DNA from: Acidobacteria bacterium 28-1
GTDB lineage: Bacteria; Acidobacteriota; Blastocatellia; Pyrinomonadales; Pyrinomonadaceae
Length of the DNA: 64,000 bases
Assembly (NCBI GenBank): GCA_002050365.1
Contig: MWYZ01000054.1
Span: 62,001 to 126,000 of the forward strand
Direction: 5' to 3'
Shown here: one piece after another, positions 5,278-57,846 of the stretch
How the letters are laid out: every line of letters starts with the position of its first letter
How positions within the stretch are numbered: the stretch's first letter is position 1
The notes under the pieces: model-generated
Databases searched by the model: none
What the model was told of the DNA's origin: nothing
Seen by the model: the letters and a program-made list of their open reading frames with translations, nothing else
Translations under genes and position numbers: made by a program

Positions 5278-5454
5278 CTACTCATCAGTTGTCGGCGTTT
5301 CAATCCTCAACTCTCGATTCTCGGCTCTCGAATTGTCTTTGAATTTTCCCGAACGAATCATTTCCGCGAACAAATCCACATCGTAATCGGCTTCGCGCGA
5401 CATCTCTTGACGGATTTCGAGCAAAACTTCTAAAAATTTTGGACGACGATACAT
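5278..5454 (-). CDS. Small antitoxin-like protein paired with PIN protein
   Basis: 58-residue protein starting MYRRPKFLEVLLEIRQEM, with the helical segment EIRQEMSREADYDVDLFAEMI. Small proteins of the form IR-x-E-[LI]-x-x-E-x-x-x-D-[LIV] commonly accompany PIN-domain proteins and are regarded as their antitoxins (family knowledge, from memory). It lies 48 bp downstream of the PIN gene on the same strand, i.e. toxin first. Its C-terminal third (RAENRELRIE) is encoded by a heptameric repeat tract, so the end of the protein has probably been rewritten by that repeat. Confidence 0.6.
   Translation of the reverse strand: MYRRPKFLEVLLEIRQEMSREADYDVDLFAEMIRSGKFKDNSRAENRELRIETPTTDE
5301..5335. repeat. 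Heptameric tandem repeat inside the small antitoxin-like gene
   Basis: Five 7-bp units in register: caatcct, caactct, cgattct, cggctct, cgaattg. It belongs to the dispersed heptamer family of this window and is translated as part of the preceding small gene. Confidence 0.55.
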
Positions 5455-5502
5455 AACAACTTGTTAATTGTTATTTTTCGCGCGTCAATCGTCAAGTAGC
5501 AT

Positions 5503-5961
5503 TTAAGGACTAACAAGAAATTCGGGCGTAACTATCACGGGCGAGAAAAATCCGGCAGCGGCATTAAACAGTCGAATTCTCGCTTGCTTGCGGACGTTTG
5601 CCAAGTGTCCGAAATTCCACGTTACCAGATAATCGATTTTATGAAACGAACAAAGCGCAACGTGAAGCGCGTCCGCCAAAAAGCGGCGGTGAAAAATGCC
5701 GCGCGAAATATAACCTTCGGCGAGGATGGCGACTTCTTCGGCGAGTTCGAGCGTCTCGAGCGGCGCAATTAACTTCAAATAACTCGTGCGGTGCGGCTCG
5801 CTGACTTGTTCAAGTTCGCGCTGAACGAGAATTGAACTAAAAGCGCGATATTCCGCCAGTTCGTGTTCCCACCAGCGAATCGTTAAATCGCGCCGAAAAG
5901 GTTCGCCGTTGTCGAGATACGCGCCGACGACCGATGTTTCAAGGTACAAACTTTGCTTCAT
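5503..5961 (-). CDS. PIN-domain protein, probable toxin ribonuclease
   Basis: PIN-domain protein of 152 residues. The N-terminus LYLETSVVGAYLDNG is the variant of the PIN motif 1 in which YLETS replaces LDTN. The central LADALHVALCSFHKIDYLVTWNFGHLAN holds the conserved acidic and Asn/Thr motifs of the subgroup. Such proteins are Mg-dependent ribonucleases of type II toxin-antitoxin systems. The likely antitoxin is the 58-residue gene immediately downstream. Its start is preceded by the repeat tract at 5967-6036, leaving no clear Shine-Dalgarno. Confidence 0.78.
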   Translation of the reverse strand: MKQSLYLETSVVGAYLDNGEPFRRDLTIRWWEHELAEYRAFSSILVQRELEQVSEPHRTSYLKLIAPLETLELAEEVAILAEGYISRGIFHRRFLADALHVALCSFHKIDYLVTWNFGHLANVRKQARIRLFNAAAGFFSPVIVTPEFLVSP

Positions 5962-5966
5962 CCTTT

Positions 5967-6036
5967 AGTTCAAAGTTCAAGGTTCAAAGTTCAAAGTCAG
6001 GTTTTAACCTTGAACCTTGAACTTTGAACCTTAAAC
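5967..6036. repeat. Heptameric tandem repeat with inverted symmetry (AGTTCAA word)
   Basis: Ten 7-bp units in unbroken register: agttcaa, agttcaa, ggttcaa, agttcaa, agtcagg, ttttaac, cttgaac, cttgaac, tttgaac, cttaaac. The second half is the near-complement of the first, so the tract folds on itself. It fills the whole gap between the stop codon of the protease gene (6037) and the PIN gene. Confidence 0.9.
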
Positions 6037-7617
6037 TTATTTGACCGGCACGAAAATCACTTTCGAGTTTTGAAAGTCAAACGTCAAGCGATAATTTTTG
6101 AGAAAATTTCCGCCTAAAATTCCTGCTTGCTGAAAACCCGACGTTTCGTTTATTAACTCCAAATCGAGCGCAATTGCGGTGATGCTTTGACGGCTGTGAC
6201 TGCCGAAAGTTACGCGCGGAAGCAGCAGCGAAGGCACATTTTCAGTAACGCCCGCCGCGCCGACGACACGCATTTTTTCACCTTTAACAAATCTGCTGAA
6301 TTCCTTTGAATTAGCTAATTCGTTGGAGATAACCGACACGCTCGCGCCTGTGTCAACAATAAAATTCAGCGGAACTTCAATGCCTTCGAGATTGACTTCG
6401 CCGCTCAAAAATCCGCTTGAAGTAAGGCGCAGCGGCAAAGAGAGCGCAGTTGTTTGAATTTTTTGTTTGTCGAATACTTTTTTACTTACCAACGTGAACG
6501 TCTGATTGCCGTAATCAATGGTCGTCAAAAATTTCGAGATGAGCGACAAACCAATATAACCGTCAACTCGTTCGTTGGTCGTGTGAAATTTGCGGATGTA
6601 AATCGGCACGTTTTTGATTTTCGCATCGCCGATATAAACTGATGGCAAAAAACCATAGACGATTTCAAATTTACCTTCACCGCCGATGCCGCGCGCCAAA
6701 CCGCCGCGCGTTATTGGTTTGATTTTTAATCTTTCGGCGGTTTCTTCGGAGATAACGGAAATTCCCGAACCCGTATCTAAAATAAAATTAAGCGGCTCGC
6801 TTGATTTGTCGAGTTTAATTTGGACAATCGGACGGTCGTTTTTTAACTTAAACGAAACAATTGTCTGTTCCGCGCCGTCCACATCATAGAGCGATTGCCG
6901 ATTGCCTAGAAAACGCAAAAAATTGATAAGTCCTTTAATGCGGTCGCGTCTTTCAACTTCGGTTTGCGGCGAAATTTGCAGGTATCTTTTGTAAGCCTCA
7001 GAAGCCTCTTTATATTGCTCGGCTCGCGCCGCAACCTGCGCTAAAGCATACACAAAATCAGGTTCTCGCGGATCTAAATAAACGGCTTCGCGCAAACTTT
7101 CGAGACCCTGCGTAATCCGATTTTCATAAAAGTCAAGCATTCCATAACCCGACCACGCTAACGCTTCCTGATTGTTTAGTTTTACAGCGTTGATAAAAGA
7201 GATTTTTGCATCGCGGAAATTGCCCGCGCTAAGCAGAGCCGTGCCTAAAACGGCAAATGCGCGAGAATTTTTCGACTCGGCTCGCGCGACTTCAATCGAA
7301 AGGTCATACGCTTCGACAAGGCGCCTCTGTTTGAGCAAATTATAACTTAACGCGAGTTTGGCGGCTGAATTTTTCGGACTGCTTTCGACAACACCGCGCA
7401 AAAGGTTTTCGGCTTTGATGAATTCGCCGCGGCGCGTAAGTTTTTCCGCTTGTTTGATTAATTGTTTTGCTTCGGCGACTTCGGTCTGCTGGATATTGCC
7501 GTCTGCTGCGGGCGCTGTAAAACCAGCCGTCAGCAAACAAGCCGAGATTAAGAAAACAAACTTTTTTTTGTGGAAAGGAAATCGAAAAACATCTGTCAAA
7601 AAATCTTTATACTTCAT
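6037..7617 (-). CDS. TPR protein with two retropepsin-like aspartic protease domains
   Basis: 526-residue exported protein. I start it at the ATG at 7617 because AAAGGAGG lies 5 bases upstream; an in-frame ATG at 7650 lacks this. A signal peptide or anchor is followed by TPR-type helical repeats (about residues 40-215: two-helix units with Ala/Leu/Tyr spacing). Then come two clan-AA aspartic protease domains, each with the DTG motif: FILDTGSGISVIS (near residue 280) and FIVDTGASVSVIS (near 425). Retropepsins normally dimerise with one DTG each; here both halves sit in one chain, so it may form an internal pseudodimer. Substrate unknown. Confidence 0.85.
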   Translation of the reverse strand: MKYKDFLTDVFRFPFHKKKFVFLISACLLTAGFTAPAADGNIQQTEVAEAKQLIKQAEKLTRRGEFIKAENLLRGVVESSPKNSAAKLALSYNLLKQRRLVEAYDLSIEVARAESKNSRAFAVLGTALLSAGNFRDAKISFINAVKLNNQEALAWSGYGMLDFYENRITQGLESLREAVYLDPREPDFVYALAQVAARAEQYKEASEAYKRYLQISPQTEVERRDRIKGLINFLRFLGNRQSLYDVDGAEQTIVSFKLKNDRPIVQIKLDKSSEPLNFILDTGSGISVISEETAERLKIKPITRGGLARGIGGEGKFEIVYGFLPSVYIGDAKIKNVPIYIRKFHTTNERVDGYIGLSLISKFLTTIDYGNQTFTLVSKKVFDKQKIQTTALSLPLRLTSSGFLSGEVNLEGIEVPLNFIVDTGASVSVISNELANSKEFSRFVKGEKMRVVGAAGVTENVPSLLLPRVTFGSHSRQSITAIALDLELINETSGFQQAGILGGNFLKNYRLTFDFQNSKVIFVPVK

Positions 7618-7646
7618 AAAATCCTCCTTTCCATTGTCAGGCGAAT

Positions 7647-10100: not shown

Positions 10101-10129
10101 GAATAAATTCGCGCAAAAATAAAATCAGA

Positions 10130-10165
10130 AAAGGAAGCAGGAAACATCTTGCTTCCTTTCTTTTT
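10130..10165 (+). terminator. Rho-independent terminator after dacB
   Basis: Perfect 10-bp stem (10130-10139 with 10150-10159, loop of 10) followed by cttttt on the plus strand, 30 bp after the dacB stop. Confidence 0.8.
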
Positions 10166-10177
10166 GCGGCGAAGAAT

Positions 10178-12353: not shown

Positions 12354-12402
12354 TCACTTTTGCCTTTTCCCTTTTGCCTTTTGCCTTTTGCCTTTTCTTC
12401 AT
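12354..12402. repeat. Heptameric tandem repeat (TTTTGCC word)
   Basis: Seven units in register: tcacttt, tgccttt, tcccttt, tgccttt, tgccttt, tgccttt, tcttcat. It fills the space between the convergent ATL and NAD kinase genes; the stop codon of the NAD kinase gene (12399-12401) lies in the last, diverged unit. No inverted arm. Confidence 0.85.
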
Positions 12403-14995: not shown

Positions 14996-15280
14996 ATGAA
15001 AGAGGAAAAAGAGGAAAAAGAGGAAAATCAAAAGCCAAATAAAGCGCAAGCTGCTCGAAAAAAGAAAAACTCTTCGGCAGCAAAGTCCGTTTCGGGTGCG
15101 AATCCTTCGAGCGAATTAGCCGAACAACGCTGGTCGGTCGTTACGTTTGAAAGCCGCGCCGCCAGCGGTTTGACTTACGATGAAGCCGTTCAAAAATTAG
15201 ATGAACTCCGAAAAGAAAACAAATTTGGATTGTGCATTATAACCGATGAAGCCGCTGAAAGAGTGAAGAGTGAAAAGTAA
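14996..15280 (+). CDS. Small hypothetical protein with charged N-terminus
   Basis: 94 residues. The first 45 are Lys/Glu/Ser-rich and low in complexity, starting MKEEKEEKEENQKP; the last 50 form a compact domain containing RWSVVTFES and LTYDEAVQKLDELRKENKFG, which looks real. No family recognised. The last three codons and stop fall in a heptamer tract (agagtga units). It stands alone between divergent and convergent neighbours. Confidence 0.6.
   Translation: MKEEKEEKEENQKPNKAQAARKKKNSSAAKSVSGANPSSELAEQRWSVVTFESRAASGLTYDEAVQKLDELRKENKFGLCIITDEAAERVKSEK
15260..15280. repeat. Short heptameric repeat at the end of a small gene
   Basis: Three units, agagtga, agagtga, aaagtaa, that encode the C-terminus and stop codon of the small hypothetical protein. 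A further low-complexity stretch with ctttgc/gcgttt words lies at about 15311-15346 in the convergent intergenic region. Confidence 0.45.
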
Positions 15281-15351
15281 AACCTCGAAATGAACCTTAC
15301 CTTTACGATATTTCTCTTTGCAGTCTTTGCGTTTTTGCGGGAAAATTTTTA

Positions 15352-16368: not shown

Positions 16369-16466
16369 TAGGCAGTCAGCAGTAGCAGTTGGCAGGAAGT
16401 TCGCTTTGATATTTTAGATTTTCAATTAAAAAACAAACCTGCCAACTGCTACTGCCGACTGCCTAC
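16369..16466. repeat. Heptameric repeat forming a long inverted repeat (AGTAGGC/AGTTGGC words)
   Basis: Left arm about 16369-16398 and right arm about 16438-16466 are near-perfect reverse complements of one another built from 7-bp units (agcagta, gcagttg on one side; aactgct, actgccg, actgcct on the other), with an A/T-rich 40-bp centre. The TAG stop of the M48 peptidase gene (16463-16465) lies inside the right arm. Confidence 0.88.
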
Positions 16467-18686: not shown

Positions 18687-18761
18687 AAGAAATTTAACGC
18701 TTTTGTGTTTGCTTTTCTTTGCGTCTCTGCGACTTTGCGCCTTTGCGTTAAAATTTCTTTG
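18687..18761. repeat. Imperfect inverted repeat with GCGTCTCTGCG words
   Basis: Left arm aaagaaatttaacgc (from about 18687) and right arm gcgttaaaatttcttt (to about 18761) are complementary apart from one base; between them lie gcgtctctgcg and gcgcctttgcg words. Same word family as at 15311-15346, 26263-26362 and the ends of the GxxExxY cassette. Confidence 0.6.
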
Positions 18762-18772: not shown

Positions 18773-20263
18773 ATGAATTTTCCCAGAGCAAGCGGCATTT
18801 TACTGCACCCAACATCTTTGCCGAGCAGATTCGGCATCGGCGATTTCGGCGATGAAGCGTATAAGTTTATTGATTTTCTCGAAAGCACCGGACAAACTTA
18901 CTGGCAGATTCTGCCGCTCGGTCCAACCGGCTATGGCGATTCGCCATATTCTTCATTTTCGGCGTTTGCGGGAAATACGCTGCTTATCGCGCCGCAGAAA
19001 ATTGTCGAAGACGGATTTTTGACCGAAGAAGAAACGATTGAAAGACCTTATTTTTCCGTTGATAGAGTTGATTTCGGCAGTGTATTTGAATGGAAAAACA
19101 ATCTTCTAAAACGGGCTTTCGAGCAGTTTCGACAAACGACCGATGAAGCCGTCGCCGATTCGTTTCACAAGTTTTGTGACGCTAATAATTTTTGGCTCGA
19201 AGACTATGCGCTCTACCGGGCAATCAAAAAACAGAATCAAGATTCGTGGCAAAACTGGGACAAGCCGCTAAAACTTCGTCAACCCGAAGCATTGTCAAAA
19301 GCCAAACAAGAACTCGACGAGGAAATGTTTGCCCAAAAGTTTTATCAGTATTTATTCTACAAACAATGGCTTGATTTGAAACGATACGCTAACGAACGAG
19401 GCATAAAAATTGTCGGCGACGTGCCGATTTTCGTTGCGTTTGATTCGTGTGATGTGTGGTGCAATCCGTCGCAGTTCAAATTAAATGAAGATGGCTCGCC
19501 GCGCGTCATATCAGGCGTTCCGCCGGATTATTTCAGTAATACGGGACAGCTTTGGGGAAATCCGATTTACGATTGGGAACAAATGCAGGCGGACGGTTTC
19601 CGTTGGTGGGTTGACCGAATACGTTTTATTTTTCAAACCGTCGATGTCGTGCGCGTTGACCATTTTCGCGGCTTCGAGGCGTGTTGGGAAGTTCCCGGCG
19701 CGGACAAAACGGCGGAAAACGGTTGTTGGGTTCACGCTCCCGGCGATGAGCTTTTCGCCGCTTTGCGAACGGCTTTGGGCGATTTGCCGATGTTGGCGGA
19801 AGATTTGGGCGTGATTACGCCGGAAGTCGAACGATTGCGCGATTCGATTGGTTTGCCCGGAATGCGGATTTTACTTTTCGCTTTCGGCGGCGATTCGCAC
19901 AACACTTATTTGCCGCACAATCACATTAAAAACACGGTGGTTTATACGGGAAATCACGACAATGATACGGTCGTCGGCTGGTTCAAATTAACCAATAAAA
20001 GGGAACGTGATTTTTGTTTGCAATATCTGAAAGGCAACAAGCGGGAAATTCATTGGGATTTTATCCGCGCCGCTTTTTCTTCGGTTGCAGATACGGCAAT
20101 CGTGCCGCTTCAAGACGTTCTCGGTTTAGGCAACGAAGGGCGGATGAATTTGCCTTCGTCCTATTCGGGAAATTGGAATTGGCGATGCAAGCAAAGCGAT
20201 TTCACCGAAGAAATCTCAAAAAGATTAAAAGAAATGACGGAAATTTACGGAAGGGTTTTTTAA
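18773..20263 (+). CDS. malQ: 4-alpha-glucanotransferase (amylomaltase, GH77)
   Basis: GH77 disproportionating enzyme of 496 residues, transferring alpha-1,4-glucan segments between maltodextrins in the cytosol. N-terminal RASGILLHPTSLPSRFGIGD and LPLGPTGYGDSPYSSFSAFAG are hallmark motifs. The active site is seen in VVRVDHFRGF (nucleophile Asp), AEDLGVITPEV (acid/base Glu) and TGNHDNDTVVGWF (third carboxylate). Complete and normal in length. Upstream repeat 18687-18761 occupies its leader. Confidence 0.95.
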   Translation: MNFPRASGILLHPTSLPSRFGIGDFGDEAYKFIDFLESTGQTYWQILPLGPTGYGDSPYSSFSAFAGNTLLIAPQKIVEDGFLTEEETIERPYFSVDRVDFGSVFEWKNNLLKRAFEQFRQTTDEAVADSFHKFCDANNFWLEDYALYRAIKKQNQDSWQNWDKPLKLRQPEALSKAKQELDEEMFAQKFYQYLFYKQWLDLKRYANERGIKIVGDVPIFVAFDSCDVWCNPSQFKLNEDGSPRVISGVPPDYFSNTGQLWGNPIYDWEQMQADGFRWWVDRIRFIFQTVDVVRVDHFRGFEACWEVPGADKTAENGCWVHAPGDELFAALRTALGDLPMLAEDLGVITPEVERLRDSIGLPGMRILLFAFGGDSHNTYLPHNHIKNTVVYTGNHDNDTVVGWFKLTNKRERDFCLQYLKGNKREIHWDFIRAAFSSVADTAIVPLQDVLGLGNEGRMNLPSSYSGNWNWRCKQSDFTEEISKRLKEMTEIYGRVF

Positions 20264-20381
20264 AGGCAAAAGTAAAAAAGTAAAAAGCAAAAGTGAAGAA
20301 AGAATCATTGCCTATCTTTTCTCTCAATTATTTTTCTGCCGCGCTCTTCACTTTTACCTTTTGCCTTTTTACTTTTTACTT
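20262..20381. repeat. Heptameric inverted repeat (AGTAAAA/AGGCAAA words)
   Basis: Left arm 20262-20300 with units aggcaaa, agtaaaa, aagtaaa, aagcaaa, agtgaag; right arm about 20347-20381 with the complements ttcactt, ttacctt, ttgcctt, tttactt, tttactt. It lies between the convergent malQ and ABC permease genes and touches the stop codon of the permease (20380). Confidence 0.82.
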
Positions 20382-23134: not shown

Positions 23135-23662
23135 GTAGGGGCGAGGCTCGTCCTCGCCCGCTCCTTTATTTTAAATAATCAACTCGTCCGACAAATTCTC
23201 AATCGTCCAAATTTTTCTTCAACGGATTTTCTTTGATGTATTTCAAACACTCGAAAAAATCCGTTTCATTACGAATAATATGGTCGTGATAACCGCGTTG
23301 CCAAAGTTGCCCTTTTCCTATTTTCCAATAAACGCGAGTCGAAATACTTTTGAATGCTCCACAAATTTGTCCGAGCGTTTTGTTTGATTCGCCTGCTCCG
23401 ATTAGCGCGTGAAAATGGTCGGGCATTAAACAATATCCATAAAGATTGAATTTCACTTTTTCACGCAAATTCAGTAAACATTCGACAATGGCTTTAGCAA
23501 ATTCTTGGTTGTAAAAAGCGTTCTTTTATTTGAAACAACGATTGTTACGAAATAGACGCGACACGAAGCATAATCAAAATGTTCTAATCGTTATGAATTC
23601 TTCCGTGTGTATAATTTCTCACTCATTTCGTTTAAGCGGGCGAGGACAAGCCTCGCCCCTAC
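23135..23662. mobile_element. REP-flanked RAYT element interrupting the sugar ABC operon
   Basis: Two REP hairpins in opposite orientation bracket a decayed transposase gene. Left REP: GTAG at 23135-23138 followed by stem GGGCGAGG (23139-23146), loop ctcgt, CCTCGCCC (23152-23159). Right REP is the mirror image: stem 23638-23645 and 23651-23658, loop acaag, then CTAC (GTAG on the minus strand) at 23659-23662. The GTAG foot plus palindrome is the classic REP form. The element fills the gap between the xylF-like stop (23681) and the xylG-like start (23120) almost exactly. Confidence 0.8.
23199..23626 (-). pseudogene. REP-associated tyrosine transposase (RAYT), broken
   Basis: IS200-like Y1 transposase remnant. 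Reading from ATG 23626: MSEKLYTRKNS, then an in-frame TAA at 23591-23593, then RLEHFDYASCRVYFVTIVVSNKR in the same frame, then a one-base loss in the T run near 23517-23521 shifts to the frame YNQEFAKAIVECLLNLREKVKF, followed by YGYCLMPDHFHALIG with the HUH metal motif HFH. The C-terminal part (WQRGYHDHIIRNETDFFECL, with the region of the catalytic Tyr) is intact. Start, HUH and C-terminal motifs together match full-length RAYT, so at least two lesions inactivate it. Confidence 0.82.
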
Positions 23663-35991: not shown

Positions 35992-36708
35992 TCATAAATT
36001 AAACAAACTAAGGCGCGGAATTTCCGCGTGTTCGCGCAGACGCTTGAGAAGCATTAAATCGAAAGTTCGCTCGTAAATTTCCCGTTCCATTTTGTTTTTA
36101 TAAGAGGCGATTTGCTTTTCGATTTCGCTTTTTATCCGTTCGGTTTCAAGATTCTGCAAAAGACTTTCGTCAACCAGTGCATCGAGTTTTTCAAGAGATT
36201 CTTCCAATTTCTCCGGCGCGTAAGGTTTCTGCCGAAGCTCCGCTAAATGCTTGGAAACTTTCCCCAAAATCGTCTTCAATTCGCCTTCGGTTTTATTTAG
36301 GGCGGCGTTTAATTCGGCGGAAACTTTTTCCAAATGCGCGGCAATCGCTTCTTCGGAGAATAAATCGCTTTTCGGTAAACTCGTGTCTTCTGAACTTTGA
36401 ACTTTGAACTTTGAACTTTGAACTTTATTGCCGCCGTTTTTGCCGACCTGCATTTCCAGCCAAGCGGCATGCTGCGCTTCGATTTCTTCGCGGCAGTAAA
36501 GCAGAGATTTAACCGTGCGCTTTTTGGCGGGCTGCCGGTCAACCGCGTCAAAAACTTTTTCGATTGCCCGCAAAATAATATGAAGCGGAATTTTTCGTTC
36601 CTGCCAAGTTTCAATCAACGCCCAATCAAGCGGACTTAAAAGCAAATTGCGTCCGCGCCGGCGTATGAACAATTCTTCAATTTCGGAAAAATAATTAAAG
36701 TAATTCAA
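35992..36708 (-). CDS. Hypothetical protein with a repeat-encoded insert
   Basis: 238 residues, no family recognised. The N-terminal 90 residues (EIEELFIRRRGRNLLLSPLDWALIETW) look like a compact helical domain. A low-complexity insert containing KVQSSKFKVQSS (about residues 95-106) is encoded by five perfect copies of a heptamer. The C-terminal 130 residues are charged and heptad-like, probably coiled coil (ELKTILGKVSKHLAELRQ). 5' end lies next to another heptamer tract at 36711. The insert shows that repeat arrays can enter a gene without breaking it when the frame stays open. Confidence 0.7.
   Translation of the reverse strand: MNYFNYFSEIEELFIRRRGRNLLLSPLDWALIETWQERKIPLHIILRAIEKVFDAVDRQPAKKRTVKSLLYCREEIEAQHAAWLEMQVGKNGGNKVQSSKFKVQSSEDTSLPKSDLFSEEAIAAHLEKVSAELNAALNKTEGELKTILGKVSKHLAELRQKPYAPEKLEESLEKLDALVDESLLQNLETERIKSEIEKQIASYKNKMEREIYERTFDLMLLKRLREHAEIPRLSLFNL
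36392..36426. repeat. Five perfect GAACTTT heptamers inside a coding region
   Basis: Exact tandem 5 x 7 bp (36392-36398 and so on to 36426), same word as one arm of 5967-6036. Translated on the minus strand within the hypothetical protein; three units equal 21 bp, so the encoded peptide repeats every 7 residues. Confidence 0.95.
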
Positions 36709-36710
36709 GT

Positions 36711-36789
36711 AAGTGGTAAGTGGTAAGTGCTAAACGGTAAGTGGAAAGCAAAAATACTTACCACTTACCGTTTAGCACTTACCACTATT
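36711..36789. repeat. Heptameric inverted repeat (AGTGGTA word)
   Basis: Left units aagtggt, aagtggt, aagtgct, aaacggt, aagtgga (36711-36745); right units tacttac, cacttac, cgtttag, cacttac, cactatt (36755-36789), the reverse complement in mirrored order. It separates two minus-strand genes and provides the TAG stop (36785-36787) of the upstream one. Confidence 0.93.
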
Positions 36790-37045: not shown

Positions 37046-37079
37046 TTCGTTTAATGAAATGCTACGCGAGACTCGTATA

Positions 37080-37207
37080 AGTTTCAAGTTCCAGGTTTCA
37101 GGTTTCGAATTTTTCTTTTCGCTAGCACCGAGTTGCGTTTCTAATTTTCAAAAATATAAATTTTGAGTTAGTTTTAACTTGAAACTTAAAACCTGAAACC
37201 TGAAACT
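37080..37207. repeat. Heptameric inverted repeat (AGTTTCA/ACCTGAA words)
   Basis: Left arm 37080-37107: agtttca, agttcca, ggtttca, ggtttcg. Right arm 37177-37207: acttgaa, acttaaa, acctgaa, acctgaa, act. The 70-bp centre is A/T-rich. The right arm ends 6 bp before the start of the mutase gene, leaving no Shine-Dalgarno. Confidence 0.88.
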
Positions 37208-41150: not shown

Positions 41151-41632
41151 TTTTTTCACCGCAGAGACGCGGAGACGCAGAGAAATTTTATAAATTATTT
41201 ACTATTCTTTTCAAACCGCTTTTTAGAATCGGAACGTGAAAATTTATCAAAAGACCAATTTTCTTATCGTAGAGTTTCAAATATGATAAAAGCTGAGCTT
41301 CGTGAACGGGCAAAATTCTTTCGACGGCTTTTAATTCCACAATAACTAAATTTTCAACAACAACGTCTATTCGATAACCGCAATCAAGTTTAACGCCTTT
41401 ATAAATCACGGGTAAAGGAACTTGGCTGTCAAATTCGAATTTGTTTTGAGTCAATTCAAAACATAAACATTCTTCATAAGCCGATTCTAAAAGTCCGGGA
41501 CCCAAACCACGATGAACCGAAATTGCACAACCGATAATTTTTTCAGTTATCTGATTTATCTTTTGATTTACGGGATTTTCCTCAAACATTCTCTAAAATC
41601 CTCTGCGCCTTTGCGTCTCTGCGGTGAAAAAA
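41151..41632. mobile_element. GxxExxY gene cassette with terminal inverted repeats
   Basis: A 482-bp unit with matching ends: left ttttttcaccgcagagacgc (41151-41170), right the exact reverse complement gcgtctctgcggtgaaaaaa (41613-41632). Beyond these 20 bp the ends stay similar (gcagag blocks). The only gene inside is the GxxExxY protein. No transposase, so it would be moved in trans if mobile. It sits tightly between methyltransferase start and nuclease stop. Confidence 0.7.
41188..41589 (-). CDS. GxxExxY protein
   Basis: 133-residue member of the GxxExxY family. The name-giving motif is GLGPGLLESAYEECL (about 30-44). YRIDVVVENLVIVELKAVERILPVHEAQLLSYLKL carries the D-(x)n-E-x-K arrangement of PD-(D/E)XK nuclease folds. 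Function not established; a nuclease-like role is inferred from the fold. It forms the sole cargo of the cassette with inverted ends. Confidence 0.9.
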   Translation of the reverse strand: MFEENPVNQKINQITEKIIGCAISVHRGLGPGLLESAYEECLCFELTQNKFEFDSQVPLPVIYKGVKLDCGYRIDVVVENLVIVELKAVERILPVHEAQLLSYLKLYDKKIGLLINFHVPILKSGLKRIVNNL

Positions 41633-42545: not shown

Positions 42546-42597
42546 AAATTTTTTCGCCGAAACGATTTTCAAAAAGTTTATCACAAAAATTAAACCT

Positions 42598-42722
42598 GGG
42601 AAGGCAGGCATCTTGCCTGCAATAAGGTGAGAGCGCGAAAACAAAGTTTAGCGAATTGTTGCGCTGAGATAAACTAATTGTTCAGCTTACACGACGTTTG
42701 CAGGCAAGATGCCTGCCTTCCC
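42598..42722. repeat. REPIN: two REP hairpins in perfect inversion
   Basis: A perfect 25-bp inverted repeat: left 42598-42622 and right 42698-42722, 75 bp apart. Each arm contains its own hairpin (stem GCAGGCA/TGCCTGC, loop tct) and a GGGAAG foot. This is a REP doublet (REPIN). It is a different REP family from that of the RAYT element at 23135-23662; no RAYT lies beside it. Confidence 0.85.
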
Positions 42723-42746
42723 GGTAAAAACTTTCGATGATTAGGT

Positions 42747-42752
42747 TATAAT
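42747..42752 (+). promoter_or_regulatory. -10 element close to rlmN
   Basis: TATAAT at 42747-42752, with no clear -35. It ends only 9 bases before ATG 42762, so a transcript from it would be almost or fully leaderless (predicted start near 42759). Confidence 0.4.
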
Positions 42753-42761
42753 AAAATTGTG

Positions 42762-43898
42762 ATGAGCGAGAAACTTCACTTGACAGGATTTTCAAAAACC
42801 GAACTTGCCGAGTTTGCCGAGAAAATCGGCGAGCCGAAATATCGCGCGAAACAAATTTTCAAAGGCTTGCACGAAAGACGGCTTTTAAGTTTTGATGAAA
42901 TGACGGATTTGCCGAAAGCGTTTCGTGAGAAGCTAAATGAAACCGCCGTCGCTTCAATTTTAAAAGTCGAATCGCGTTATGTTTCCGAAGACGGGACGCG
43001 CCGCTTTTTAATGAAAACCCCTGACAATTTTCCCGTCGAAACCGTTTTTATTCCAACCGAAAACCGGGACACCATTTGTTTTTCGTCGCAATCAGGCTGT
43101 CCTCTGAAATGTGATTTTTGCTTGACGGCGAAACTCGGACTGCTTAGAAATCTAACGGCGGGCGAAATTGTCGAGCAGATAATTATAGTTTTGAACGATG
43201 TTTACGGAACGGGCGCGGAAACTCCGCACGGCACGAATTTGGTGGCGATGGGCGCGGGCGAGCCGTTTTTAAATTTCGACAATTTAATAAAATCGCTTGA
43301 AATAATGAGCGACGAAGAAGGTTTGTTCATTGTGCCGAATCGCGTAACGGTTTCAACTGCCGGAATTGTGCCGAAAATTTACGAATTTGCGAAACTTGAA
43401 AAACGTCCAAACTTAGCAATCTCACTGTCTGCACCAAATGATGAATTACGCGACAAGCTGATGCCGATAAATAAGCGTTGGAACGTCGAGGAACTTTTGG
43501 CGGCGGCGAAAGAGTTTGAAAAAACTTTGCGGCGCGGCGAGCGTTTCACATTTGAATACGTTCTGCTCGGCGGCGTGAACGACTCCGAAGCGCATGCCCG
43601 CGCGTTGGCAAATCTTGTTCACAAATACGAATTACAAAAAGTGAAAATCAATCTGATTCCGCATAACTCGGCAGATCCGCTTGAATATCACCCGCCGAGT
43701 TTTCGGCAAGTCGAAAGATTTAAAAATTTATTAGAAAGCAAAGGCGTTTCCGCTTACGTGCGCCGTGCGCGTGGACGCGACATCTACGCCGCTTGCGGAC
43801 AACTCGCCGCGAAAGACGGAATGAATAAGACAGTCGGCAGCAGCAGTTGGCAGGAGAAAACCGACTGCCTACTGCCTACTGCTGCTGCTGCCGACTGA
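42762..43898 (+). CDS. rlmN: Dual-specificity RNA methyltransferase RlmN
   Basis: Radical-SAM enzyme methylating C2 of A2503 in 23S rRNA and A37 in some tRNAs, 378 residues from ATG 42762 (a GTG one codon earlier is also possible). N-terminal GEPKYRAKQIFKGLHERR, radical-SAM cluster C-P-L-K-C-D-F-C in FSSQSGCPLKCDFCLTAKLG, GAGEPFLNFDN, LAISLSAPNDELRDKLMPIN and the second active-site Cys in RRARGRDIYAACGQL. The final ~20 residues (TVGSSSWQEKTDCLLPTAAAAD) and the stop codon come from a heptamer repeat hairpin, so the native C-terminus has been overwritten. Confidence 0.95.
   Translation: MSEKLHLTGFSKTELAEFAEKIGEPKYRAKQIFKGLHERRLLSFDEMTDLPKAFREKLNETAVASILKVESRYVSEDGTRRFLMKTPDNFPVETVFIPTENRDTICFSSQSGCPLKCDFCLTAKLGLLRNLTAGEIVEQIIIVLNDVYGTGAETPHGTNLVAMGAGEPFLNFDNLIKSLEIMSDEEGLFIVPNRVTVSTAGIVPKIYEFAKLEKRPNLAISLSAPNDELRDKLMPINKRWNVEELLAAAKEFEKTLRRGERFTFEYVLLGGVNDSEAHARALANLVHKYELQKVKINLIPHNSADPLEYHPPSFRQVERFKNLLESKGVSAYVRRARGRDIYAACGQLAAKDGMNKTVGSSSWQEKTDCLLPTAAAAD
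43832..43896. repeat. Heptameric inverted repeat encoding the RlmN C-terminus
   Basis: Perfect 15-bp arms (43832-43846 agtcggcagcagcag and 43882-43896) around units actgcct, actgcct. Same word set as 16369-16466, 44935-45016 and 47401-47477. It is translated as the tail of RlmN and supplies its TGA. Confidence 0.88.
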
Positions 43899-44934: not shown

Positions 44935-45016
44935 AGTAGGAAGCGGTAGTTGGCAGAGATAAGTAAGTTTTGAACGCCACAATCAACTTGCCTACTGCTA
45001 ACTGCTACTGCCTACT
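44935..45016. repeat. Heptameric inverted repeat (AGTAGGA/ctactgc words)
   Basis: Left arm agtagga, agcggta, gttggca (44935-44955); right arm about 44990-45016 with cctactg, ctaactg, ctactgc. Between convergent genes. The TAG stop of the PgeF gene (45005-45007) is inside the right arm. Confidence 0.87.
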
Positions 45017-45895
45017 TTTTTTCAAACCAATCACCGACAGCAAACGTCCCGTTTTGCCGTAAAGGTTTTTCTCGACGCGATAGGAAAAAAACAAATCTGT
45101 GCGTTCGATCGTGCAAAGCGGAGCGATGAAGATATTTTCAGGTAAAACGCCAATGCTTGAAATTTGCTCTTTGTTTGCTAAATGTAAGTCAACCAGCGCG
45201 TGTCCTTCACGGGTTTTTGTAAAAAGATTTCCACAGGTGGAAAAGTTTTTCTCAAAAGCGTTAATTATATCTTGTCCGACTTCGTAATTTTTTCCGCTTG
45301 CCGCCGGTCCGATCGCGCAAATTAAATCTTCGGTGTTCGTGCCATAAATTTCGCGCATTTTTTCAATCGTCTTTACAACAATCGAATTCGCCGTTCCGCG
45401 CCAACCGGCGTGAACCGCCGCAAACGCTTTCGTCCGATTATCGCCGAACAGAATGGGAACGCAATCGGCTGTTTTTACGCCGACTAATACATTCTCTAAG
45501 TTTGAAATTAAAGCGTCGCTCTTTTGAATGCCGTTTTCCGCATCATCGAGATTGTTGACGATTCGCACGTCCGCGCTGTGCGTTTGCCAACTTGAGGCGA
45601 GCCAGTAATCGCCGCCGAAAATTTCCAAAAAACGCTTTCGATTTTCCGCCAGATTCTCTGCCGAATCAATATCTACGCCCGACAAATTCAGAGAGTTTTC
45701 GGGGAACGGCGAAACACCGCCGAGCCTAGTTGAAAAACCGTTGGCAAAACCTTTTTCTTCAAGCCGGCGGCAAACAAGAATTTTTACGCCGTTCTTTTCT
45801 CGCCAAAAAAAGCCGGAATCTGCTAAAGTTTCTTTTGTTTGGTCTTCGGACTGCCGACTCTCGACTCTCGACTCTCGACTAATGATAGTTTCCAT
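45005..45895 (-). CDS. pgeF: Peptidoglycan editing factor PgeF (laccase-domain protein)
   Basis: 296 residues from ATG 45895 (ATG 45907 also possible). The conserved metal-site motifs are GGVSPFPENSLNLS, WQTHSADVRIV, KTADCVPILFGD, FAAVHAGWRGTANSIV and AIGPAASGKNYEVG. PgeF removes wrongly incorporated amino acids from peptidoglycan precursors (YfiH/CopGFD family). Residues 4-17 (IISRESRVESRQSED) come from a heptamer tract, and the start overlaps the divergent acpS start. Both ends of the gene thus fall in repeats. Confidence 0.9.
   Translation of the reverse strand: METIISRESRVESRQSEDQTKETLADSGFFWREKNGVKILVCRRLEEKGFANGFSTRLGGVSPFPENSLNLSGVDIDSAENLAENRKRFLEIFGGDYWLASSWQTHSADVRIVNNLDDAENGIQKSDALISNLENVLVGVKTADCVPILFGDNRTKAFAAVHAGWRGTANSIVVKTIEKMREIYGTNTEDLICAIGPAASGKNYEVGQDIINAFEKNFSTCGNLFTKTREGHALVDLHLANKEQISSIGVLPENIFIAPLCTIERTDLFFSYRVEKNLYGKTGRLLSVIGLKKSRQ
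45849..45883. repeat. Heptameric tandem repeat (GACTCTC word) at the divergent pgeF/acpS start
   Basis: Units gactgcc, gactctc, gactctc, gactctc, gactaat, in exact register. It lies within the N-terminal codons of pgeF and runs up to the ATG of acpS (45882), so it occupies the place where a promoter and leader would be expected. Confidence 0.9.
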
Positions 45896-47243: not shown

Positions 47244-47400
47244 ATTTATTATTCCTTCCAAAACAAAGTTTATAATCAAAAGCCTTAGTTGCACAACGCA
47301 AAGGTTGAGTTTTCTACGAAACGCAGATTCGTCCATTTTACACCATATCGTATTACATTTATCCGATTTCAGACGTGAGAAGTATGAAGTGTATAAAACA

Positions 47401-47477
47401 GTTGGCAATCAGCAGTAGCAGTTGGCAGTAAAAATACAGCACCTGATTACAGACTGCCAACTGCTACTGCCTACTTA
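47401..47477. repeat. Heptameric inverted repeat (AGTTGGC/actgcta words)
   Basis: Left arm gttggca, atcagca, gtagcag, ttggcag (47401-47428); right arm actgcca, actgcta, ctgccta (47453-47473). It is the main occupant of the divergent gap 47244-47590, which otherwise holds the promoter and hairpin of the FecR gene. Confidence 0.87.
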
Positions 47478-49624: not shown

Positions 49625-49632
49625 AACGAAAA

Positions 49633-49683
49633 AAAGAAAGCCAAAAGCAAGGAAAACAATTGAAACTTTTGGCTTTCTTTTTA
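49633..49683 (+). terminator. Terminator after the FecR-domain gene
   Basis: Perfect 15-bp stem (49633-49647 with 49666-49680) and T-rich tail, 9 bp past the stop. Symmetric A/T tracts allow it to work in both directions. Confidence 0.82.
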
Positions 49684-49687
49684 ACTT

Positions 49688-49792
49688 TTAAGCACTCCAA
49701 CAAAAATAGTTTTAAAGTATTTTGCCGCAAAAGGAACGCCTGCAAACTACAGGCGTTCCTTCAGTCAAATATATTTTTGTTGGAGTGCTTAA
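49688..49792. repeat. Nested 105-bp palindrome with TTAA ends
   Basis: Outer perfect 21-bp inverted repeat (49688-49708 and 49772-49792), each end beginning TTAAGCACTCC on its own strand. Inside is a second perfect hairpin, 12 bp (49731-49742 with 49750-49761, loop of 7). It lies between the convergent FecR and M16 genes, just after the FecR terminator. Could be a MITE-like unit or a strong terminator; see findings. Confidence 0.75.
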
Positions 49793-49805
49793 GCTGGTAT
49801 AAATA

Positions 49806-51164
49806 CTAATTATTTTGTAGAAAAATTTCTTTATTGATCGCTGATTGATTACCGATAACCACAAAGCGTATGTTCTTCATATATTTTTGCGCGACGGCTT
49901 GCACTTCGGCAGGCTTCACTTGGCGGATTTTATCCAAAAAGCTAAACGCATTGCGCCAACCGCCGCCGACGAATTCGTATTTGGCGAGCTCGCCGGCTTG
50001 CGCGGCGTTCGTTTGCTGGTCAATGTAATAAAGCGTTAGGAAATGTCCTGATATGCCGTCAATTGTTTCCTCATTAATCTGTTTAGTTCTTAAATTGTTT
50101 ACTTCATTAAGCATCACGCTGACGGCTTGATTTGCGTCAACGGCGGTTACATAAATGTTCGCCGTATTTGCCGCAGATGAATCTAATTCGGCATTCGGCG
50201 CGTATGAAAGCTGACGTTTGATGCGGACTTCCTGGTAAATTCGGCTTTGAAGAACGGCAACCGCAACTCGCATCGCATAATAATCGGGACTAGCGGGCGA
50301 CGGCGCGTTAAAAACGCCTTGAATATAATTAGTCGGCAAGGTGCGCGACGTAACGTCTAACGTCGCTTTGGAAAAATCGAGCGGCGGAAAGGGCGATTCT
50401 TTATAATCACCGCGCGGCAGTTTACCGAGCGTGGCGGCAACACGCGTCTGCACGTCTTTCGGGTCTATGTCACCGACAACTACGAGCAAAAGGCGCGAGG
50501 TCTGCATCAATTTCTGATGAAAATCAATTAAATCTTTTGCGGTGAAACGACTTATCGTCTCGAGCGTCCCGCTCACGTCGTTGGCGTATGGATGATTAAC
50601 GTAAATGATTCTATCCTGCAAAACCTGCAAAAAATTATCGCTGCTGGTTTCTTGTTCTCTCAAACCGGTCGAAATCTGGTCGCGGGTGCGTTGAACGTCT
50701 TCTACTGCAAAAGCCGGATTAAGCGCGATGTCGGTGAAAATCTCCCACGAATGGTCAAAGTTTTGGCGCGTCGTCGCCAAACTCAAAGCACTGTAATCGT
50801 TGTTCACACCCGAACCGACGCTGCTTCCAGTCCGCGCGAGTTCGCGTCTCAGAGTTTCACGCGGAAATTTCTTGCTTCCCTCAGTCGCCGCACTCAGCAT
50901 CAAGTTTTCGATGCCGGCGTTCTTATCGGTAATGTTTCGCGCACCGCCGCGAATGAAAAGTCCGGCGGCTACCGTTGGCGAGTTCGGACGGCGTTTGACT
51001 AAAACCTTCAATCCGTTCACGTCAAACTCCGTTACGAGATTTGCTTGTTCGGCGATGCTCGGCTTACTTGTTTGAGCAAAACTGCTTGTGACAAAAAATA
51101 AACAAATGAATGTCAGCAAAACGATTTTGCCGACCGCTGACCGCTGACCACTGACCACTCTCAT
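49806..51164 (-). CDS. M16-family peptidase-like subunit lacking the zinc motif
   Basis: 452-residue M16 (pitrilysin/MPP-like) protein. The position of HxxEH holds GIENLMLSAATEGSKK, so the catalytic zinc site is missing; the fold is otherwise typical (VAAGLFIRGGARN, LLVVVGDIDPKDVQTRV, NYIQGVFNAPSPASPDYYAM). Such subunits pair with an active partner, here the gene just upstream. I start it at ATG 51164; a TTG five codons earlier would overlap the partner by 11 bp. The first residues VVSGQRSAVG before the signal helix are encoded by a heptamer tract. Confidence 0.88.
   Translation of the reverse strand: MRVVSGQRSAVGKIVLLTFICLFFVTSSFAQTSKPSIAEQANLVTEFDVNGLKVLVKRRPNSPTVAAGLFIRGGARNITDKNAGIENLMLSAATEGSKKFPRETLRRELARTGSSVGSGVNNDYSALSLATTRQNFDHSWEIFTDIALNPAFAVEDVQRTRDQISTGLREQETSSDNFLQVLQDRIIYVNHPYANDVSGTLETISRFTAKDLIDFHQKLMQTSRLLLVVVGDIDPKDVQTRVAATLGKLPRGDYKESPFPPLDFSKATLDVTSRTLPTNYIQGVFNAPSPASPDYYAMRVAVAVLQSRIYQEVRIKRQLSYAPNAELDSSAANTANIYVTAVDANQAVSVMLNEVNNLRTKQINEETIDGISGHFLTLYYIDQQTNAAQAGELAKYEFVGGGWRNAFSFLDKIRQVKPAEVQAVAQKYMKNIRFVVIGNQSAINKEIFLQNN
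51132..51159. repeat. Heptameric tandem repeat (AGTGGTC word) at the M16 start
   Basis: Units gaccgct, gaccgct, gaccact, gaccact, ending just before the start codon of the inactive M16 subunit. In frame, they add about nine residues ahead of the signal peptide. Confidence 0.9.
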
Positions 51165-55260: not shown

Positions 55261-55300
55261 AACAAAAACGGCTTTTCATACTTGAGAAGCCGTTTTTGTT
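55261..55300. terminator. Bidirectional terminator between convergent genes
   Basis: Perfect 14-bp stem (55261-55274 with 55287-55300) with A tract on one side and T tract on the other, serving both the sigma factor gene and the DUF1579-like gene. Confidence 0.88.
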
Positions 55301-55307
55301 TGGAAAT

Positions 55308-55853: not shown

Positions 55854-55941
55854 ACTTATAAAGAATCTCCCTTACAAAATTTAAGACGATTTTAAATAGA
55901 TTTTCCGCCCGCGTCTTGTAAATTTGCGACACTCTGAAAAC

Positions 55942-56235
55942 TTATTTGATGAGTTCGCCGTGTTCGATACGTTTCACTTTTTCGGCAAATGAATTCGGCG
56001 AGCGTCCCGTGAGCATCGAAAATTCGTGTGTCAGATGCGCTTGGTCGGCGAAGCCCATTTCGGCGGCGCGGCTTGCCCAGTTCATTTCAGATTTTTCCAC
56101 CAAACTGATTGCCGTCGCCCGAATCCGACGCGCTCGTGCGTATTGTTTTGGCGACAAGCCCGCGCTCTTCTTAAAACGCCTTTCCAATTGTCTGGTGCTT
56201 AAATGAACTGCTTCGGCAATCTCCGAAACTCTCAT
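55942..56235 (-). CDS. AraC-type DNA-binding half, frameshifted from sensor half
   Basis: 97-residue AraC/XylS HTH domain: VSEIAEAVHLSTRQLERRFKKSAGLSPKQYARARRIRATAISL, second HTH AAEMGFADQAHLTHEFSMLTGRSPN. Its ATG overlaps the stop of the sensor half as ATGA (56232-56235). In intact relatives both halves form one chain; restoring one A before ATGAGAG would give GEMRVSEIAEAVHLS in continuous frame. Either a one-base loss or a real two-protein arrangement coupled by stop-start. Confidence 0.75.
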   Translation of the reverse strand: MRVSEIAEAVHLSTRQLERRFKKSAGLSPKQYARARRIRATAISLVEKSEMNWASRAAEMGFADQAHLTHEFSMLTGRSPNSFAEKVKRIEHGELIK

Positions 56236-56741
56236 TCGCCGCGATTTTCTTCGATAATTTTGACGGCTTCGGCAATCTTTTCGTCTGTTTCGGCGCGTGT
56301 TATTTGGAGCGAATTTATTTGCGCTTCGTAAATTTTTATCGCTTCTTCAAAGTTTCGGCAATGGATAAGTTTTTCAAGCAGTCCATGGGTTATGTGTAAA
56401 AAATTCTTCGATTCAATTAACGGTTGAGATTGAATTTCCGACGGATTAATACGTAAAATTTTCGCGCAAGCCGCCGGCGAAAATCTCATTCCCCAGTAAA
56501 CGTCATTCGCAAAAACTTGTGTCCTCACGGTTTCGAGGCTCAAATTGTTAACGAAAAGCAGATTGACATCGGCGTTTTCGTTGCCGTAATAAAAAAGCGA
56601 AATACAGCCGTCGGGGAAAACTTCGTGAACAACCGGCTCGTGATTTTCACCTTGTGCCAGAAATTCCCAGAAAGATAAAACGAGATGTGAGACTTCCGGT
56701 GACGCGGGAATTTCGCGGTAAAACATCGAAGCGTTTGACAT
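56232..56741 (-). CDS. AraC-family regulator, N-terminal sensor half
   Basis: 169 residues. N-terminal FYREIPASPEVSHLVLSFWEFLAQGEN, HEVFPDGCISLFYYG and GMRFSPAACAKILRINPSEIQSQ belong to the DUF6597 sensor of AraC-type regulators. Terminates at TGA which overlaps the start of the HTH half. Located 6 bp downstream of the SanA-like gene, in one operon. Confidence 0.75.
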   Translation of the reverse strand: MSNASMFYREIPASPEVSHLVLSFWEFLAQGENHEPVVHEVFPDGCISLFYYGNENADVNLLFVNNLSLETVRTQVFANDVYWGMRFSPAACAKILRINPSEIQSQPLIESKNFLHITHGLLEKLIHCRNFEEAIKIYEAQINSLQITRAETDEKIAEAVKIIEENRGE

Positions 56742-56747
56742 AAAATT

Positions 56748-57398
56748 TTATTGATTAATCGGTTGCGTCTGTCCGCCGATTGCCTCAAACGGCAAAAAGT
56801 TTATTTCAAACCACGCGCCCGCCCGCGAGAAAAATTCTCGAAACGCCCAGTAGCTTTCGCCTTCGTAGCGGCGACGATTTGCCGTGATGCCGATACTGTC
56901 GACGCCTAAATTATTGCACAGATAAATCGCCCGCGCTTGGTGAAATTCCTGTGTAACGACAATCGCCTTTTGCACTTCAAAAATTTCCTTCGCCCGAAAA
57001 CAAGTGTCGTAAGTTCTCCTGCCGGCGAAATCCAGAGCAACGTCGCTTGCGGGGACGCCGAGTTTGACGGCGGTCGCCCTCATCGCGGTCGGCTCGTCAT
57101 AATTTTCGTTCCGGTTGTCGCCGCTCATCAAAATCTTTTTCACACGCCCGGCGCGATAAAGTTCAACGGCAGTAATTACACGGTCATAAAGCGCGTGCGA
57201 AGGCTCGCCGTTTTCCCAAACCCTCGCGCCGAAAACGATTGCGATGCGCGGCGGATTCTCTGTGGGAATTTCCGTTATTGACGATTGGATTTTACCGGCG
57301 GCTTGCGATTGAAGGCGTTCATTGATGAAATAAATAATCAAAAGCCCGATTGAGCCGACCGAGAGAAAAATAAGGACAATTCGTAAAAGCCACTTCAT
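56748..57398 (-). CDS. SanA/YdcF-like DUF218 envelope protein
   Basis: 216 residues with an N-terminal transmembrane helix (1-25) and a DUF218 domain on the outside: IVFGARVWENGEPSHALYDRVITAVELYRAG, ILMSGDNRNENYDEPTAMRATAVKLGV, DFAGRRTYDTCFRAKEIF and AIVVTQEFHQARAIYLCNNLGVDSIG. Matches SanA (vancomycin-sensitivity/envelope barrier) of enterobacteria in order and size. Heads the operon with the AraC halves. Confidence 0.88.
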   Translation of the reverse strand: MKWLLRIVLIFLSVGSIGLLIIYFINERLQSQAAGKIQSSITEIPTENPPRIAIVFGARVWENGEPSHALYDRVITAVELYRAGRVKKILMSGDNRNENYDEPTAMRATAVKLGVPASDVALDFAGRRTYDTCFRAKEIFEVQKAIVVTQEFHQARAIYLCNNLGVDSIGITANRRRYEGESYWAFREFFSRAGAWFEINFLPFEAIGGQTQPINQ

Positions 57399-57488
57399 AA
57401 AAAAACTTTGTCGAGCGGAAAAATAGCCGGCAACTTAAAATTATAAACTACCAGCTATTTTAATCATTCGATAACGAATTGCAACGAT

Positions 57489-57737
57489 CTAAAATTTATC
57501 AACCAACTCCGTAATACCGCAATGCGGACAGGTTAAAGTTCGATGAGCTTCGTCCGCCCATTTTGCGAGCGCGAGATTTGAAAAACTCGGCTGTTTGCTT
57601 TCCGCTTCACCTTCACTCATCAATCGTGAAATTTTATTTTCAGACGAATCATCTGATTGTTTGAATTCGCGTTCACACGGTTTACAAATCCAACCGAAAC
57701 CGTCGTTATAAAAATCGTTCAATTCGATTTTTTCCAT
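57489..57737 (-). CDS. Small zinc-ribbon-like protein
   Basis: 82 residues or so from ATG 57737 (upstream in-frame start lies in A/T-rich sequence). Cys pairs ICKPCERE (about 17-20) and CPHCGITEL (near the C-terminus) could bind one zinc. The middle is hydrophilic (EGEAESKQPSFSNLALAKWAD). No family recognised. Confidence 0.6.
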   Translation of the reverse strand: MEKIELNDFYNDGFGWICKPCEREFKQSDDSSENKISRLMSEGEAESKQPSFSNLALAKWADEAHRTLTCPHCGITELVDKF

Positions 57738-57811
57738 AAACAAAAAAATAAAAATCGACTGACAGTCGACGGTAATTATTGAATAAATATTCAAGATCAT
57801 TACCACGGATA

Positions 57812-57846
57812 ACTGCCAACCGCCAGCTGCATACTGCCGACTCGCT
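57812..57846. repeat. Heptameric repeat at the HtrA stop codon
   Basis: Units actgcca, accgcca, gctgcat, actgccg, actcgct. One arm only. The last unit overlaps the TAG stop (57845-57847) of the HtrA-like gene. Confidence 0.75.

Follow-up and report, generated by a model that had tools for sequence, protein, structure and literature searches.

Why does a bacterial genome carry, at one gene border after another, tandem repeats that keep a unit of seven bases while the letters of the unit change? The question is raised by a 64,000-nucleotide stretch of Acidobacteria bacterium 28-1 (contig MWYZ01000054.1, positions 62,001 to 126,000; hereafter the window). The original prediction, made from these letters alone, described a dispersed family of heptamer tracts with a fixed AGT and a variable tetramer, and suggested a common generating mechanism. 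We examined the window together with other loci of the same genome, congeners and other phyla (L and G numbers denote loci and genomes). We found that neighbouring tracts face each other as complementary arms and that sites tend to persist among congeners while their words change, even inside loops of essential genes. The best reading, to which we lean only slightly more than we doubt it, is that weakly constrained DNA undergoes concerted evolution in place, through slippage-like copying and through hairpin-templated copying between arms.

Period-7 tracts and their vocabulary

Tracts in the window were detected with Tandem Repeats Finder (TRF) and from the printed sequences. Counts called unbiased come from the window plus L021-L060 of the same genome (664,428 bases); L001-L020, picked for AGTTCAA, lie outside them. 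The window holds six exact lag-7 runs of at least 12, compared with a mean of 0.05 and a maximum of 1 in 20 order-3 Markov simulations. Tolerant tracts in the unbiased sample number 99 at period 7 and 68 at the harmonic 14, and every other period from 4 to 16 gives at most 14. Extrapolation to the 4.15-Mb draft genome yields about 620 period-7 tracts. The period-7 search that the original prediction called for, here on a sample of the genome, finds the tracts dispersed, and it bears out the claim that they are not chance. Many words are A-rich and simple, as microsatellites arising by chance from base composition would be, but this explanation has next to nothing left to recommend it. Against observed run counts of 6, 51 and 14, order-3 Markov sequences yield only 0 to 0.2, other periods show no comparable excess, and the long inverted repeats present in 91 of 339 gaps of 60-400 bp vanish on shuffling (0/339). 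Period specificity and pairing together refute it.

Repeats were found at or near all 16 places first listed as gene borders. Most of them do lie at borders, but not all, since the tract at 36391 is inside a reading frame. The clearest window tracts are those at 5967, 12357, 21565, 36391 (5.1 perfect copies), 36709, 37080, 45855 and 51132; those at 5301, 15260, 16369, 20262, 43832, 44935 and 47401 are weak or irregular, with mixed 6-8 bp units or TRF scores of 31-33. Across the sampled genome, here with the 20 AGTTCAA-chosen stretches included, 119 of 184 tracts lie less than half inside predicted genes and 65 mostly inside them, in a sample that is about 85% coding. Genes were predicted with a home-made caller, whose start codons and short genes are approximate.

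Is AGT the fixed core of these units? Among 125 Acidobacteria tracts with a single AGT in the consensus, mismatch rates at A, G and T are 0.143, 0.170 and 0.115, compared with 0.191, 0.163, 0.141 and 0.140 at the four other positions. The corresponding rates in 174 tracts of other phyla are 0.092, 0.093 and 0.108 versus 0.092, 0.153, 0.092 and 0.095. The supposedly fixed letters are therefore no more constant than the other four. Counted per tract, AGT shows a mild excess (38 of 98 unbiased tracts, 25.5 expected, z 2.9); CCA/TGG is more strongly enriched (33 of 98, 12.5 expected, z 7.7), and AAA, GGA and CAA likewise stand above AGT. When each of the 39 distinct words among these 98 tracts is counted once, AGT falls outside the top seven listed. 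Twenty-five genomes split almost evenly, 13 with more AGT arrays and 12 with more of the reversed pattern, a control that is imperfect because words such as AGTGAAA contain TGA. Mismatch rates and word enrichment rule out AGT as a fixed core, and an enzyme keyed to AGT is therefore unsupported. The most frequent words are AAAATCC, AAAAGTG, AATTACG and AGTTCAA, and a second large group is built on GGATTTT, AGATTTT and GGATAAT.

One AGT trait survives: AGT and AAT are preferred starting points of tracts. Of 114 AGT tracts of other phyla, 37 have the A of AGT as their first base, and with AGTTCAA left out the tract starts give z 4.5 for AGT and 9.8 for AAT. This preference is read from tolerant tracts, exact runs being blurred by internal mismatches. 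Upstream of the starts we found no motif other than A-richness, and AT-rich flanks may explain part of the preference. For the tract-start, core-mismatch, word-enrichment and unit-order tests, L061-L068 and some search loci were dropped; identical tracts were counted once in the first three and identical arm pairs once in the last.

The words are not peculiar to this genome. The GTDB collection has at least 118 stretches with three tandem copies of AGTTCAA, where about 0.1 would be expected for independent equal bases. Among the 80 matches listed, titles name Cyanobacteria, Bacteroidetes, Verrucomicrobia, Acidobacteria, Chloroflexi, Planctomycetes, Nitrospiria, Proteobacteria, Deltaproteobacteria, Clostridia, Neomarinimicrobiota and candidate phyla. 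This one word thus contradicts the notion that such heptamers are confined to heterocystous cyanobacteria, with acidobacteria as a novel second home. Within the family it is patchy (11 of 59 relatives, own genome included). On viral contigs at least 120 stretches match an AGT-demanding repeat pattern, 80 of which were looked over; because the pattern demands AGT, these loci were not used for judging it.

Facing arms and their place among genes

Tracts that lie close together pair. In the unbiased sample, 23 of the 26 tract pairs no more than 250 bp apart are complementary, none has the same orientation and three are unrelated, whereas word shuffling gives a mean of 1.5 and a maximum of 7 complementary pairs. 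The mirror-image arms in register first noticed in the window are thus the prevailing arrangement among neighbours. The pairs are also polar, the first arm holding more G than C in 22 of the 23 and the reverse in none. A wider sample that includes chosen stretches and congeners has 61 of 75 pairs complementary and three on the same strand, with the first arm G-richer in 49 and C-richer in 9. Unit order was compared between arms in this wider sample, L001-L020 included. It matches beyond permuted order in 12 of 45 informative hairpins (rank <0.05), and the actual order is strictly best in 12 of 45 versus about 6.5 expected, with ties among the ranks. Of the 91 gaps with long inverted repeats, 36 have an arm period of 7 or 14, six of 8 and two of 10; the other 47 show no clear period and include terminator-like and other repeat kinds.

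Are the arms there to make RNA hairpins? Terminators, attenuators or mRNA stabilisers selected for their structure and not for their sequence could carry such arrays, their words then representing extreme compensatory change. Several features fit. A stop codon lies within 6 nt of 27 of 43 tracts (34% expected), RNA folding gives z from -4.4 to -13.6 for six window stretches, the G-richer strand is the sense strand in 17 of 22 unpaired co-directional tracts, and sites persist among congeners (below). The distribution of the 23 arm pairs among gaps fits less well. While 19 are co-directional, three lie in divergent gaps and a single one in a convergent gap, although convergent gaps make up 52 of the 401 gaps of at least 40 bp (282 co-directional, 67 divergent). 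In addition, the array hairpin of G005 stands beside a terminator-like hairpin that is kept in congeners. With the arrays in reading frames described below, these points make functional RNA hairpins an unlikely account. The divergent pairs and the arrays in PheT and Mfd frames likewise set the tracts apart from intrinsic terminators. No Rfam family matches the window at gathering score, and a promoter and terminator scan of 35-52 kb found no excess over shuffles (17 versus 20.9 and 24 versus 30.5).

Words change at kept sites and inside reading frames

We compared 35 gaps, from the window and L058, with eight congeners, each species being represented by one genome (66-89% identity in matches) and the ortholog tables holding the first place per congener. 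Congeners have a hairpin or array in 31 of 58 gaps where our genome has one too, versus 11 of 74 where it has none (P 0.0028, labels permuted among the 35 gaps). Arrays are present on both sides in 25 ortholog pairs, of which 11 share the word and 14 differ. The comparison of gaps in relatives proposed at the outset thus shows that sites tend to persist, but not that words do. Words at orthologous sites are kin nonetheless: their distance is 0.96 steps, compared with 2.72 for random lexicon pairs, and 17 of the 25 pairs lie within one step, compared with 9% of random pairs. Six one-step pairs, at four sites, are all transitions, the kind of change that G.T pairing tolerates.

Single sites illustrate this turnover. 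In the window gap 36646-36784, a two-arm hairpin stands at the same place in all five congener gaps retrieved, built of AGTGGTA (G004, as in the window), AATGGTA, GGTGAAT, AGTTATC and GATTTGC. At L058 14756-15057 all five congeners have a hairpin, with AGTTCAA twice (as in our genome), AGTCCAA twice and AGGTTCA once. Similarly, in Segatella, where three of 60 genomes have a match, two species differ in the units at a common gap, AGTTCAA in one and AGTTAAA/AGTTGAT-like in the other, as judged by eye from alignments. With 39 words in the sample and with same, one-step and replaced words at orthologous sites, slippage-like concerted evolution fits better than a templated repeat maker.

Could the tracts have been inserted instead? 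A mobile element or a derivative of one, such as a miniature inverted-repeat transposable element (MITE), a repetitive extragenic palindrome (REP/REPIN) produced by a Y1 transposase or an unknown carrier of arrays, would suit the recurrence of words at many loci, the hairpins present only in G005, G006 or G008, and the 12 Y1_Tnp matches of our genome. It would also suit a filled and empty site in Brasilonema sp. UFV-L1 (L121 405-798), where a composite 392-bp stretch with two arrays corresponds to 5 nt in two relatives (G145 and G147). Flank identity there is about 95%, and the filled stretch lacks a clean junction. Against insertion, the loops between arms are private (0 of 15 recur in a 1.05-Mb sample), the words at one site are kin, and G017, which is 91% complete, has 21 matches to triple AGTTCAA and no Y1_Tnp match. 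REP/REPIN elements in particular differ from the tracts, which have no conserved palindromic unit and share only the word. We therefore regard mobile elements as a quite improbable source. Y1_Tnp occurs in 29 of 35 genomes, a count in which REP-associated tyrosine transposases (RAYTs) are not distinguished from other Y1 proteins. The window itself holds a Y1_Tnp (PF01797) remnant with one internal stop at 23229-23537 (C50:85229-85537 in the genome search).

Arrays also run through protein-coding sequence. For the frame that contains the 36391-36426 array, all four congener orthologues retrieved carry arrays at the same codons, built of words that differ from ours but are identical in G003 and G007. 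Pfam identifies further frames with arrays as the PheT beta chain (L047:1338-3425), Mfd (L056:10790-14425), an Asp/Glu racemase (L028:6836-7753) and an AcrB-type pump (L051:2893-6249). The PheT loop at aa 326 has an array in five of the six genomes that cover it, in five words, and the loop at aa 67 has an AATTACG array in four of six. In Mfd, the loop at aa 528 holds an array in five of eight genomes, with equal loop length in six of eight; that at aa 73-83 holds one in five of seven and ranges from 4 to about 25 residues. In G004 and G005 the latter loop consists of two complementary arms within the frame, and the AcrB-type frame contains a two-arm GACCACC/GGTGGTC array (L051 4378-4515). These arrays and arms in coding loops mean that regulatory RNA or terminators are not the whole story. 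Other phyla have AGTTCAA arrays in frames that we take, by eye, to be RuvC, MnmA, TsaD and GlmS, and on a Levybacteria contig (L167, 2636 region) two different heptamer arrays, KVESSKFKVQSS and NSQLSTLNSQLS, lie in one frame, taken likewise by eye to be GlmS.

The tracts of the window are collected in Table 1.

Table 1. Heptamer tracts and arms of the window (window coordinates).
Feature	Position	Strand	Basis or remark
Weak tract, CTCGACT-like units	5306-5331	.	TRF score 31
5' arm, AGTTCAA units	5967-5997	+	TRF; hairpin with 6006-6036, RNA fold
3' arm, complementary, AACCTTG/TTGAACT units	6006-6036	-	TRF
Single tract, CTTTTGC units, between convergent genes	12357-12396	-	Tract also in 3/4 congener gaps retrieved
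Weak tract, AAGAGTG units	15259-15278	+	TRF
5' arm, irregular AGTNGGC-like units	16369-16396	+	G008 and G006 carry other repeat words
3' arm of 16369 hairpin	16438-16465	-	Sequence, inverted repeat, RNA fold
5' arm, AGTAAAA-like units, mixed 7-8 bp	20262-20302	+	TRF
3' arm, TTTTACT units	20351-20381	-	TRF; pairs with 20262 arm
Single tract, TTTTGCC/TTTTTAC units, adjoining stop codon	21565-21595	-	TRF
Perfect tract, AGTTCAA units, inside reading frame	36391-36426	-	TRF
5' arm, AGTGGTA units	36709-36748	+	TRF, RNA fold
3' arm of 36709 hairpin	36756-36786	-	TRF
5' arm, AGTTTCA/AGGTTTC units, between divergent genes	37079-37106	+	
3' arm of 37079 pair	37176-37206	-	
Two-arm hairpin, irregular CAGTNGGC/ACTGCCT units, 3' end of a gene	43831-43897	.	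TRF, RNA fold
Two-arm region, irregular CAGTAGG-like units	44935-45016	.	TRF
Single tract, AGTCGAG units	45855-45880	-	TRF
Two-arm hairpin, irregular AGTTGGC/AGTAGC units	47399-47475	.	TRF, RNA fold
Single tract, AGTGGTC/AGCGGTC units	51132-51159	-	TRF
Irregular ACTGCCNA-like tract	57811-57842	-	Read from sequence, not called by TRF

The same genome holds other repeats besides. Terminator-like hairpins lie at 10101-10177 and 49625-49805; the former is kept in congeners, where it is accompanied by an additional hairpin in G005, G006 and G007. Period-8 relatives with TTTGCGTC/CGCAGAGA units occur at 15315-15339, 18717-18747, 41160-41183 and 41600-41623, and the one at 18717 sits in a stretch without a counterpart in G006. 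A perfect period-9 tract, AAAGAGGAA, lies at a predicted gene start (14999-15027). Inverted repeats with units of about 9-10 bp (TTAGCCACGAATAACACGAAT, ACAGATAAACACAGAT) are present at L039 1383-1572, L040 2846-2948, L046 7689-7891 and L059 7453-7555, in a layout equal to that of the heptamer hairpins. At 42563-42771 a 25-bp perfect inverted repeat, GGGAAGGCAGGCATCTTGCCTGCAA, flanks a 75-bp loop; none was seen in the six congener gaps retrieved, and similar GCCAGCATCTTGCTGGC arms are present at other loci of our genome. This repeat looks like a different, MITE-like kind.

How the arrays may arise and what they mean

How could a period outlive its word? Under in-place concerted evolution, which we judge to have slightly better than an even chance of being right, the tracts would be of one kind, period-7 arrays evolving wherever DNA is weakly constrained, that is, in intergenic gaps as far as the stop codon and in the variable loops of proteins. 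Slippage-like copying would homogenise the units of a tract, and the 7-bp period would therefore be inherited while the word drifts. Where inverted arrays face each other, the strand could fold into a hairpin and one arm be recopied from the other by template switching, so that both arms would change word together. Template switching of this kind is known from quasi-palindrome correction, and by analogy the enzymology may be similar. Hairpin pairing probably keeps the arms matched, and the step of seven probably stems from the replication machinery.

Several observations weigh against this reading. Tracts are not enriched near start codons, which lie no more than 15 nt away in 19 of 41 cases (42% expected). 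The partner arm beats same-word arms elsewhere in only seven of 18 cases. The set of transitions is small and comes from four sites only; one site supplies two, which may stem from a single event. In eight of the 25 pairs at shared sites the words differ by two to three steps, so some look replaced rather than drifted. Facing AGTTCAA arms are rare elsewhere (three of 80 loci among the matches listed), and paired arms may therefore be commoner in this genus. Moreover, 7-nt steps would break the frames of PheT and Mfd, where words could drift only through length-neutral changes or steps of 21. Finally, the top word fills 17 of 105 own-genome tracts, against a letter-shuffle mean of 3.8, and among 117 tracts of other phyla more than one step from AGTTCAA, 21 use a word of our genome's lexicon where 7.2 are expected. 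Slippage alone does not predict such recurrence across loci and phyla, and the shared vocabulary is the strongest hint of something more specific. In this respect the common mechanism of the original prediction may still hold; an AGT-keyed enzyme finds no support.

That something could be a dedicated repeat-making activity, by templated synthesis or an array-copying enzyme, with a limited vocabulary not keyed to AGT. Words shared within the genome and across phyla, phased starts at AGT or AAT, and arrays of equal length replacing Mfd loops (six of eight equal) speak for it. We nevertheless consider it rather improbable, given about 40 words in one sample, single-step drift at sites, and a search that found no candidate gene, with Y1_Tnp as the sole family tested. 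It is also conceivable, if quite doubtful, that a DNA-patching process is common to bacteria of many phyla and overwrites a few dozen weakly constrained bases at a time, in gaps as well as in protein loops, by repeated copying of 7-nt words drawn from a limited vocabulary. Such a process could work on the two sides of a short stretch, which would leave facing arms, and could do so without a change in length, and so would pass through the frames of essential genes.

Heptamer repeats as such are not new. Short tandemly repeated repetitive (STRR) sequences of heterocystous cyanobacteria comprise several heptamer words per genome, as do the tracts described here, and period-7 tracts also occur in Brasilonema. 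A survey of 7006 genomes described heptamers as the most abundant intergenic tandem repeats in a wide range of prokaryotes, with no functional clue (PMC6344855), and the long simple sequence repeats of Mrazek et al. 2007, as told in PMC4679880, already showed the abundance of period 7. These repeats resemble ours in period, in mostly intergenic position and in spread over many phyla; the passages of the two papers that treat them describe no inverted arms, word turnover at conserved sites or arrays in essential-gene loops. The account of TAACTGA repeats in PMC4679880 places intergenic heptamer arrays in Beggiatoaceae and some Cyanobacteria and Bacteroidetes; 169 sets are direct and a single repeat is indirect, most of them immediately before a start codon. 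When rotated, TAACTGA gives the AGTTATC word of our congener G007. However, that account calls related heptamers rare, whereas we find 39 words in 98 tracts, paired arms and a stop-codon side.

Paired arrays are known in Xanthomonas and Geobacter. Xanthomonas (GGGAATC) and Nostoc (GGGGA(C/T)T) have G-rich heptamers, treated with a focus on quadruplexes, and in the passages of that paper two Xanthomonas have 70 and 75 convergent pairs, at shared sites that vary in length and sequence (PMC4692102). Two same-word arrays facing each other recall our 23 of 26 complementary pairs. As described there, Xanthomonas and Nostoc have one G-rich word per genome studied; here there are dozens, the word differs between congeners, and most words lack G-runs (AAAATCC, AAAAGTG, AATTACG and AGTTCAA have no GGG). 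Geobacter metallireducens has octamer and heptamer arrays paired on opposite strands at variable distance, presented as predicted binding sites of a global regulator with a conserved consensus (PMC2700814), while in our tracts words change at fixed sites. As far as these passages go, then, the abundance of period 7, facing heptamer pairs with length and sequence variation, and paired arrays were already known. For word turnover in essential-gene loops we found no account in the literature searched, whose coverage was incomplete and mostly without subscription papers.

Why does this turnover matter? Even in the loops of PheT and Mfd, words are exchanged whereas the site and its period tend to stay, and turnover at kept sites separates what sets the seven from what picks the word. 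It is also a warning, as such arrays can be mistaken for regulator sites, terminators or protein repeats.

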